Source: a virus. From it: 26,840 nucleotides of DNA. The notes under the pieces were generated by a model. The model was not told the origin of the DNA and ran no database searches. It worked only from the letters and a program-made list of their open reading frames with translations. This document shows, in pieces, positions 1-2,920 of the stretch; positions within the stretch are counted from its first letter, which is position 1, and every line of letters starts with the position of its first letter. The position numbers were made by a program, and so were the translations under genes. Location of the stretch: the IMG/VR virus record IMGVR_UViG_3300010885_030919, positions 1 through 26,840 of that record. One strand, given 5' to 3'.

Positions 1-1595
1 CCAATGCCATGGAATCCGAATCTACCTGCATTTTGTTGTAGCCATTGATTTTCTCTGCTATTAGCTTGGTGTGCACCGCCACCTAAATCTAAAGCTAATC
101 CCCATCCATGATTTGAAGTTCCTGGATAAGCAGCCAAACCACCCTGAGAATAAAGACCTTTTTGTCTCGCAACTGCAACCTGTTGTGCATATGGTCTATA
201 TGAATCTGTTATACTCCAAGAAATACCTTCTTGACGAGCTGCGTCAAACATTTGTTTATAAGCATGTGCAGCTGCAGGTGCTAAACGATGATTACCTTCA
301 CCAATTGACATAAGTTCAGCATCTGATAATCTACCATTACCACCTTGTTGACCACCCATATCTTCGCCACCACCATAACCTCTGCGATCATCTCCCATAA
401 CAGCAGAAGCAGCTGTGGCTTGTCCGCCTGATTCTGGATTATTGCCACCAGCAATTGGTGTAGCATTTGGGCCACCAGTTGGTGTAACTTCTGGTGTTGC
501 AGGAACTGCAGTATTTTGTGGTTGAGTTACTGGTGCACCACCACTCAATTGTTGTTGACGTTCAGCAACATTTGATGAAATTGGTGGTTGTGATACTTTT
601 GGTAACTGATTATTTGTAGCAGTTTGTGGTTCTGCATCTTTACCTGCAAGAGCTACGGCATTTGCTGCTCTTTGTTTTATTTCTGTGCCTTTAGATCTTT
701 CATATTGTGAATCAATAATAGAAGCTGCTGTTATAGCATCTTTTGCGCTCAATAGAGCATCACCAGCTCTTTTTTCAGTATTAGTTAATTCCCAATGAAC
801 AAATGCTAATTGTTCTTTGAAAGAAGCCTGTTCAAGTTTCTTGCCAAAATGTTGTTCAAATAAAGCTTGTCTATCCGGATGCCATTGTGCAATACCAACA
901 GCTTGGCCACCATCACCTCTTCTTTTACCAGATATTACATCTGAAGAGAAATTATCAGATTCTTGCTGAAGATTACCAACAATACCTGCAGATTGAGCTT
1001 TTGACCATCCTTGTGTTTGGAAAAACTGCATAGCTTCAGAAGAATTACCATTTTGGTCTGCTGGTTTTATACCTGATAGTTGTTCTAAAGATGGTCTTTG
1101 TCTATTTCTAGATTCAAACTGTTCTCCAGAAGATAATATTCTTTCAGCTTGTTGTCTTTGTGAAGATCCACCACTTCCTACAACAGCCGCTACAGATGCT
1201 GTAGCAGCAGCTGCAGCCATTTTTCCTGCTTTCCCAAGACTAGCTAATAACCCTAATCCACTATTACCACCACTGTTTCCACTACCACTACTTAATGATC
1301 TTGAAAGATTATTCAATGAATTCAACATATACATTTGTATCTGAATCGATTGAGATAATAAACTATTAGTTTGATTTATTCTATTAGCTACTTCTTGCTG
1401 GCTACCAGAAATAACATCTTGTAATTGAGGACCGATACCAGCAATTTGTTGTTTTTGTGATGCAAATACTGAATGTACATCCTTAAGAATTCTGGACATA
1501 TTTTCATTATGTTCATCAGCAGCAGCTCTGAACTGATTTGTTGCTGCATTCATACCACTTGCAGCTTTAGCTATTTGCCCTAATTCGTTTGCCAT
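1..1595 (-). CDS. Tail lysozyme / M15 (VanY-type) peptidase fusion, partial (C-terminus cut by window edge)
   Basis: The frame is open from an ATG at 1595 to the left edge, giving 531 residues without a stop. Residues 1-105 are helical and Gln/Asn-rich. A Gly/Ser linker and an Ala-rich hydrophobic stretch (about 116-145) follow. Residues about 185-300 look like a phage tail lysozyme domain: GIVGNLQQESDNF carries the likely catalytic Glu (E212), followed by GIAQWHPDR. A Pro/Gln/Gly-rich linker (about 320-410) leads to a D-Ala-D-Ala carboxypeptidase-type domain from about 415, with the zinc motif SNHGWGLALD (H496, D503). The last zinc ligand expected in this family would lie past the edge. Both domains would cut peptidoglycan. 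The start overlaps the holin stop (TAATG), so translation is probably coupled. No signal peptide is visible. Whether it is a virion hub enzyme or the lysis endolysin is not decided by the sequence. Confidence 0.82.
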   Translation of the reverse strand, partial: MANELGQIAKAASGMNAATNQFRAAADEHNENMSRILKDVHSVFASQKQQIAGIGPQLQDVISGSQQEVANRINQTNSLLSQSIQIQMYMLNSLNNLSRSLSSGSGNSGGNSGLGLLASLGKAGKMAAAAATASVAAVVGSGGSSQRQQAERILSSGEQFESRNRQRPSLEQLSGIKPADQNGNSSEAMQFFQTQGWSKAQSAGIVGNLQQESDNFSSDVISGKRRGDGGQAVGIAQWHPDRQALFEQHFGKKLEQASFKEQLAFVHWELTNTEKRAGDALLSAKDAITAASIIDSQYERSKGTEIKQRAANAVALAGKDAEPQTATNNQLPKVSQPPISSNVAERQQQLSGGAPVTQPQNTAVPATPEVTPTGGPNATPIAGGNNPESGGQATAASAVMGDDRRGYGGGEDMGGQQGGNGRLSDAELMSIGEGNHRLAPAAAHAYKQMFDAARQEGISWSITDSYRPYAQQVAVARQKGLYSQGGLAAYPGTSNHGWGLALDLGGGAHQANSRENQWLQQNAGRFGFHGI

Positions 1596-2044
1596 TAGTT
1601 GCTACCATTTACCTTTGCTAGTTTTTCTTGTCCTCGTGTCCACGCAGCCACACCGAGGATTGCTGCAAACGAAAGGTGAATTAAACCGCCATTAGATAAT
1701 GTTAAAGGCACCCATGCTGTGTAACCGATTTGAACACCAAATGCTTTGTAGATAATCGGAATAAACATACTAATAGCTGGAAAAATAATAAAATCCATTA
1801 AATTGATTGCCATGTAGAGCCAACCCATTGCTGGTCTCCAGTAAGCTTTTACCCAATGTTCTTCTTGTTGATCAAGTTGTGATTCTACTATTTCTTTATC
1901 AATAGAAGTTTGAGCTAAACCAACAGATGCCTGTGCAATTGCAGAATTGCTGTTATCAATAACAACAACGGAAGGTGCAGCTGTGGTAATGCTGACTTCT
2001 GGAATTAATGGTGGCGGTGTATCAGGATTTGCTCTAATTACCAT
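1595..2044 (-). CDS. Holin (3TM-superfamily type)
   Basis: This 149-residue protein matches what I know of the phage 'holin of 3TMs' family: WRPAMGWLYMAI near residue 69, DFIIFP, then WVPLTLSNGG and ILGVAAWTRGQEK. Holins form inner-membrane lesions that set lysis timing. About 65 polar N-terminal residues, Ser/Gln-rich with no signal peptide, come first. Hydrophobic segments lie at about 74-99 (long enough for one span or a tight hairpin) and 119-135, and the C-terminus is charged. The start overlaps the upstream 62-residue gene by 11 bases and the stop overlaps the lysozyme-peptidase start, so the three appear translationally coupled. The adjacency to a peptidoglycan-degrading gene supports a lysis role. 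The number of membrane spans is inferred by eye. Confidence 0.82.
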   Translation of the reverse strand: MVIRANPDTPPPLIPEVSITTAAPSVVVIDNSNSAIAQASVGLAQTSIDKEIVESQLDQQEEHWVKAYWRPAMGWLYMAINLMDFIIFPAISMFIPIIYKAFGVQIGYTAWVPLTLSNGGLIHLSFAAILGVAAWTRGQEKLAKVNGSN

Positions 2045-2222
2045 TTTGCAGTCTTTGTTTTGCGTCTTCTGTTTCTTTTATATGTTTCATTAACAATTCA
2101 ATATAAATGTCTCTTTCAAAAGGTATTAAATTTTCAATTTCACTAAGAGAATATTTATGGTGTTGAGCTAAAGAGAATATCGTCGAGAAATAATTCTGTA
2201 ACGAATTATGGCTCAACGCCAT
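2034..2222 (-). CDS. Small protein in -1 frame of the gp26/gp51-type gene; possible frameshift extension
   Basis: This open frame of 62 residues starts at an ATG inside the last codons of the upstream gene (10-base overlap). It is acidic and helical, with a motif YSLSEIENLIPFERDIYIELL that resembles small proteins found downstream of gp26-type genes in marine T4-like phages. There is no Shine-Dalgarno sequence before the ATG: the preceding bases are a run of eight T on this strand. The frame is -1 relative to the upstream gene and is open through the T run, so the product could be made either by coupled re-initiation or as a C-terminal extension after a -1 frameshift. A chaperone-like role in tail or hub assembly is an inference from that arrangement. 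The exact function is unknown. Confidence 0.7.
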   Translation of the reverse strand: MALSHNSLQNYFSTIFSLAQHHKYSLSEIENLIPFERDIYIELLMKHIKETEDAKQRLQNGN

Positions 2223-2920
2223 GAAAAAAAATCGTTTAGTGAGTTTAACACGATTTTCCTTTCATTGCCAAGTTTATTTGTATACTTTATTTCATACTCT
2301 AATTTTGGAGCAGAGATAAGGAAATTTTGAATATCATCGAACGTTTTCATATTTAAATTTTCTAAAAATGATTCAAGTTCTTGTTTCTTATAATTTTTAG
2401 CTTCATAGATATTATCTTCATAGTAAATCTTATCTACACATCTAATGATTAATTCGAACATATAATTTTTATCTAACTTCAAAAACTCTTCATCGTCATA
2501 TAAAGTTGCAGGTGGGTATTTCATAATAATACCAGAATTTTCTGTTATCTTAATATTTGTATCTGAATCTTTTGGAAATACAACTTCGATATTGTTAAGG
2601 TCTACATTGAAATCATATGACTGATCGTCTTCATAATCTTTATATGTAAGCTTTGCAATATTATCAACAGAGAATGCTCTTAGCTTTAGAAAGATATATT
2701 CTAGATCAAATACAGCTAGTTTGTTTACATCAAACTTATCTTCTGTGCAACAGTTGTTAACAATCTGTTTAATAGCTCCAAGAATTTCTCCTTGGTTTTC
2801 GCTTTCCCTTGCCATAAGAAGAAGTTTTTCTTCTTTGACTAAGAAAGGTCTAAATTTAACAACTTTCTTAAGAGAAGGAATCTTGATATTATATAAAGGG
2901 TATTCAATCTTAGGTAGCAT
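2213..2920 (-). CDS. gp26/gp51-family baseplate hub assembly protein (possible tail assembly chaperone analogue)
   Basis: The protein has 235 residues. The N-terminal pattern MLPKIEYPLYNIKIPSLKK followed by KFRPFLVKEEKLLLMA is the signature I associate with the T4 baseplate family that includes gp26 and gp51 (about 200-250 residues). These proteins are needed for assembly of the central baseplate hub. The middle is acidic, and a helical region NYMFELIIRCVDKIYYEDNIYE follows at about 150. The C-terminus LNDFFSWR is encoded across a run of eight U immediately before the stop. The ATG has a good GGAG ribosome-binding site 7 bases upstream. The stop overlaps the start of the next gene in the -1 frame, an arrangement like the G/GT tail assembly chaperones of lambda-type phages. 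I cannot separate gp26 from gp51 by eye. Confidence 0.75.
   Translation of the reverse strand: MLPKIEYPLYNIKIPSLKKVVKFRPFLVKEEKLLLMARESENQGEILGAIKQIVNNCCTEDKFDVNKLAVFDLEYIFLKLRAFSVDNIAKLTYKDYEDDQSYDFNVDLNNIEVVFPKDSDTNIKITENSGIIMKYPPATLYDDEEFLKLDKNYMFELIIRCVDKIYYEDNIYEAKNYKKQELESFLENLNMKTFDDIQNFLISAPKLEYEIKYTNKLGNERKIVLNSLNDFFSWR
2223..2232 (-). promoter_or_regulatory. Candidate -1 programmed frameshift site (U8 run)
   Basis: On the minus strand the end of the gp26/gp51-type gene reads GAT TTT TTT TCA TGG CGT TGA. This contains a perfect in-frame U UUU UUU heptamer, four codons from the stop. A -1 slip would continue as TTC ATG GCG directly into the 62-residue frame, giving a fusion of about 295 residues. 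Eight identical bases are also a place where sequencing or replication slippage can occur. No downstream pseudoknot was worked out. Confidence 0.45.

Follow-up and report, generated by a model that had tools for sequence, protein, structure and literature searches.

Does the overlap of T4-type gp26 and gp51 genes at a run of Ts form a single locus, read into a short and a long tail assembly chaperone by -1 ribosomal frameshifting in the manner of lambda G/GT? This question was raised by a fragment of viral DNA (IMG/VR virus record IMGVR_UViG_3300010885_030919, positions 1 to 26,840; 26840 bases, here called the window), in which a gp26-type gene ends in such a run. Sequence comparison and structural modelling indicate that the locus very probably encodes a TAC-N/TAC-NC tail chaperone pair of a T4-like myovirus, with the long form made by -1 ribosomal frameshifting. 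Slippage itself, its frequency and the chaperone action of the products are matters of inference here.

The slip site and the overlapping -1 frame

The features described here lie on the minus strand of the window. The gp26-type gene (2213..2920) encodes 235 residues and its 3' end reads ...AAC GAT TTT TTT TCA TGG CGT TGA, with the TGA stop at 2215-2213. The heptamer T_TTT_TTT (2225..2231), part of a T8 run at 2231-2224, is in frame near the gene end, as the original prediction had stated. The gp51-type frame (2034..2222) has 62 residues counted from its ATG at 2222-2220. It was confirmed to be in the -1 phase and to run open from about 2261, and so through the heptamer, as far as its stop at 2034; reading across the slip site gives a predicted gp26-gp51 fusion of 295 residues, in agreement with the length that had been proposed. 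The ATG of the 62-residue frame was also correctly described as lacking a ribosome-binding site, its best anti-SD duplex being about +0.3 kcal/mol. Among the window genes, T TTT TTY occurs in frame only three times in 8684 codon positions, and only the chaperone site is near a stop (18 nt, against 498 and 621 nt for the others).

Homology and predicted structure of the two parts

The gp26-type gene matches the T4_baseplate family PF12322 (E 2e-52) and phrog_150 (1e-56). The 62-residue part matches phrog_634, baseplate hub assembly catalyst (9e-25), as well as the last 41 positions of phrog_150 (1e-4); no Pfam family was found for it at E up to 1. The window record, a 26.8-kb fragment, holds no second PF12322 copy.

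An AlphaFold2 model of gp26 built from 61 sequences had a pLDDT of 93.4. When it was compared with the PDB using VIA-align, the top rows, matching over the first approximately 90 residues, were 3fgx (Z 8.5), the HK97 tail assembly chaperone gp13 2ob9 (Z 7.4) and YqbN 3klu (Z 6.8), followed by 5ir0 (Z 4.7) and 6vek (Z 4.0); a Z near 8 can come from common arrangements, and the persuasive point is the ordering of these top rows. We take 3fgx and 3klu to be tail assembly chaperones. These matches, of moderate Z, support a TAC fold in the N-terminal part of the short form. A Foldseek search of the same model against the PDB gave no match with E < 0.001, with HK97 gp13 at rank 4, and a PDB sequence search with the gp26 alignment gave weak, unrelated matches only. 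The -1 product was predicted to be helical (pLDDT 79).

Downstream, a holin-like gene (1595..2044; phrog_3427 holin, 7.5e-7; PF11351, 2.8e-4, below cut-off) overlaps the end of the gp51 frame and is followed by a tape measure candidate (3..1595), the proposed chaperone client, which matches phrog_9570 tape measure over residues 134-368 (1e-32). This candidate also carries a tail lysozyme domain and a VanY-type peptidase domain (PF18013, 8e-25; PF02557, 3e-15) and runs past the end of the window. The chaperone locus is therefore upstream of the tape measure candidate with one holin-like gene between them; phiM19 and cyanophages have a similar gene order, with weaker tape measure matches.

Conservation of the slip site across relatives

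The original prediction had proposed a comparison of homologous loci, and had named as contrary evidence relatives that keep both genes with no slippery run or in a different relative frame. Every one of the 97 loci that contain both parts has its second part in the -1 frame. An in-frame T TTT TT(T/C) heptamer was present at the junction in 96 of them (63 T7 and 33 T6C). Such a site, with a -1 frame that matches the gp51 profile, was also seen in pf16, S-RIM50, S-SKS1, Aeh1, Aswh_1 and P19. The one exception among the 97 was an Ackermannviridae locus, L020. One further locus, L096, was set aside from this count as its second part was missed by the profile; it has T TTT TTA and a matching -1 frame. 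The phase was as predicted at all 97 loci. Relatives without a canonical heptamer do exist: in the Ackermannviridae loci L020, L111 and L104, the gp51-like part is in the -1 phase with a TAATG overlap, and L020 and L111 have AATTTTC in place of the heptamer.

Clustering at 70% identity gave 70 families, which are related to one another, so that the family counts that follow are not counts of independent events. The first Phe codon was TTT in 69/69 families, where 44.8 were expected from the usage of each gene, and the codon before the Phe pair ended in T in 69/69 (49.8 expected), even though the residue it encodes varies between D, S, N, T and A. Beginning at the slip site, the sequence of the -1 product is conserved (FF...HHKYSL.E.E..IP.ER).

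These data bear on the most serious alternative, that two separate proteins are made, with a 62-residue gp51 starting at its own codon and coupled to the gp26 stop, and with the T run merely encoding Phe-Phe. Several features are compatible with such an arrangement: gp51 is annotated as its own gene in relatives, an ATG is found near the junction in 24 of the 70 families (several as TAATG or TGATG), and a coupling overlap would also favor the -1 phase. However, 46 of the 70 families lack an ATG in the -1 frame near the junction, and in 27 this frame contains neither ATG nor GTG nor TTG between 46 nt upstream and 24 nt downstream of the stop. A separate start therefore cannot be the general way of making the second part. 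The restriction of the slippery codons to TTT after a T, the conservation of the -1 sequence upstream of any start, the missing ribosome-binding site in the window and the single frame of the T4 long form (see below) also argue against a separate start. We consider this explanation very unlikely, and a plain separate gp51 gene was rejected on the comparative data. In the window itself, a free 62-residue product could still be made by termination-reinitiation, since the ATG overlaps the gp26 stop (ATGGCGTTGA).

The joined frames might instead arise in the mRNA, if RNA polymerase slipped on the T8 run that is present in the window. RNA polymerase usually slips on runs longer than T6C, yet this is the form of 33 of the 96 heptamers. 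The heptamer is moreover kept in frame, as simultaneous tRNA slippage needs, and we regard polymerase slippage as less probable still than a separate start. A sequencing error in a truly continuous gene, suggested by the error-prone nature of homopolymers and by the continuous gp51 of T4, can safely be dismissed, as the same phase and stop context recur at 97 loci, which were drawn from many assemblies, the isolate genomes Syn1, P-SSM2, ACG-2014f and phiM19 among them.

Probable T4 counterparts of the short and long forms: gp26 and gp51

A profile was built from 11 fusion proteins. In a search restricted to the two sequences T4 gp26 and T4 gp51, it matched the former with E 3e-15 and the latter with E 2.6e-9. 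The match to T4 gp26 (208 residues) was nearly full length and reached the FF at its C-terminus, which is also the end point of the short form. In T4 gp51 (249 residues) the profile aligned with residues 115-246, the C-terminal half, continuing through the region equivalent to the -1 product; the N-terminal part matched the fusion profile weakly and was aligned by MAFFT only. T4 gp51 also matched phrog_150 over residues 3-248 (2.6e-84) and phrog_634 over residues 147-246. Judged by these alignments, T4 seems to have a separate gene for each of the two forms, whereas both would come from one locus in the window. Two separate genes for the two forms in some T4-like phages are mentioned in the PRFect paper (PMC10885494), which cites Vladimirov et al. 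2022. T4 gp51 is required, yet it is absent from the final particle (PMC3004832).

Possible stimulators of frameshifting

A stem-loop is predicted 6 nt 3' of the heptamer (2181..2218), and may act as a frameshift stimulator. Its folding energy was -15.8 kcal/mol (z -4.1), and none of 200 shuffled sequences was as stable. In the closest relatives the inner stem (ATAATTC/GAATTAT) alone is kept, and among these close relatives no covariation or compensatory change supporting the stem-loop was seen. Across families, folding 3' of the slip site had a mean z of -0.97 against -0.12 at control positions (p 3e-5, a value weakened by the choice of offset after a series of offsets had been inspected). 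Rfam gave no match at gathering score.

An SD-like motif about 10 nt upstream of the slip site was found in 28 of 69 families, compared with an expectation of 15.3 and a maximum of 22 in 40 synonymous shuffles; the window does not have it. We also considered whether the motif and the stem-loop are mutual alternatives, and rejected this since folding scores were alike with and without the motif (-0.86 and -0.78). Both stimulators are put forward as suggestions, because the downstream stem is kept only in part in close relatives. It is conceivable, though somewhat short of an even chance, that T4-like phages keep an almost invariant slip site but use stimulators that are lineage-specific and interchangeable, each tuning the ratio of short to long form: in many marine lineages an SD-like GGAGG(G) about 10 nt upstream, and in the lineage of the window the downstream stem-loop.

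Proposed mechanism and relation to known systems

Under the frameshifting mechanism, normal reading would stop at TGA (2215-2213), giving the 235-residue short form (TAC-N, gp26), while a fraction of ribosomes would slip back one base on T_TTT_TTT and produce the long form of about 295 residues (TAC-NC, gp26-gp51), in the lineage of the window perhaps aided by the stem-loop. If the analogy with lambda G/GT holds, the tape measure protein would be coated by short forms, and the C-terminal domain of the long form would recruit the tail tube protein. The fusion had been predicted to help hub or tail assembly; the data support the tail chaperone role, with the tape measure protein, and not the hub itself, as the most likely client.

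The proposed likeness to lambda G/GT was borne out by the heptamer, the -1 phase, the codon constraint, the families with no start, the TAC fold and the one-frame long form seen in T4 gp51. In lambda gpG/gpGT, and by our reading in the window locus, a short chaperone is paired with a form extended in the -1 frame at a slippery sequence, and the locus precedes the tape measure gene. The slippery sequence of lambda is G GGA AAG, in contrast to T TTT TTT in the window. The gp26 of the window is also longer than a lambda-type chaperone and has C-terminal parts beyond its TAC-like N-domain, and, unlike in lambda, a holin-like gene separates the chaperone from the tape measure candidate.

The original prediction was unaware of such a site in T4-type gp26/gp51 genes, and on this point it is superseded by the literature. 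The T4-like tail assembly chaperones gp26/gp51 were identified by Vladimirov, Gautam & Davidson (Virology 2022, 566:9-15), as cited in PMC10885494 and PMC12846349, and the latter, a 2025 paper, credits Vladimirov et al. 2022 with poly-T frameshift signals in the TAC-N genes of T4-like phages. Their gp26/gp51 chaperones and the window locus share the same gene families as well as a short and a long form. By the account of these citing papers, T4-like phages were thus known from 2022 to have this type of system, and the window locus is a well-supported further member. In the TAC locus of phage Adele (Vandenendeviridae/Andersonviridae), a -1 frameshift has been proposed at a conserved poly-T, GTTTTT, near the 3' end of TAC-N (PMC12846349); Adele-type loci belong to other phage families, and have this motif where the loci studied here have six to eight Ts.

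Cyanophage gp51 has been described as about 20% of the length of its non-cyanophage counterparts, and the gp51 of Aeh1 was reported missing in 2010 (PMC3037559). We suggest that the cyanophage protein looks truncated, and that of Aeh1 missing, because the rest would be supplied by frameshifting from gp26. Many T4-like genome annotations should then carry one joined gene product; apart from this point on gp51 annotation, our finding extends the published idea.

Arrangements at individual loci

Some loci showed features of their own. In the Aeromonas phages Aeh1, Aswh_1 and P19 (L105, L109 and L110), T TTT TTC precedes the gp26 stop, and an unannotated -1 frame matching the gp51 profile extends about 54-56 residues beyond it. 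Bacillus phage SP-15 (L106) has a possible gp51-like frame in the +1 (or -2) phase near a T6 run, with a weak match of 8.3 bits over 28 positions. At three loci (L072, L078 and L087) the distance from the heptamer to the gp26 stop is 30 nt, compared with 6-15 nt elsewhere.
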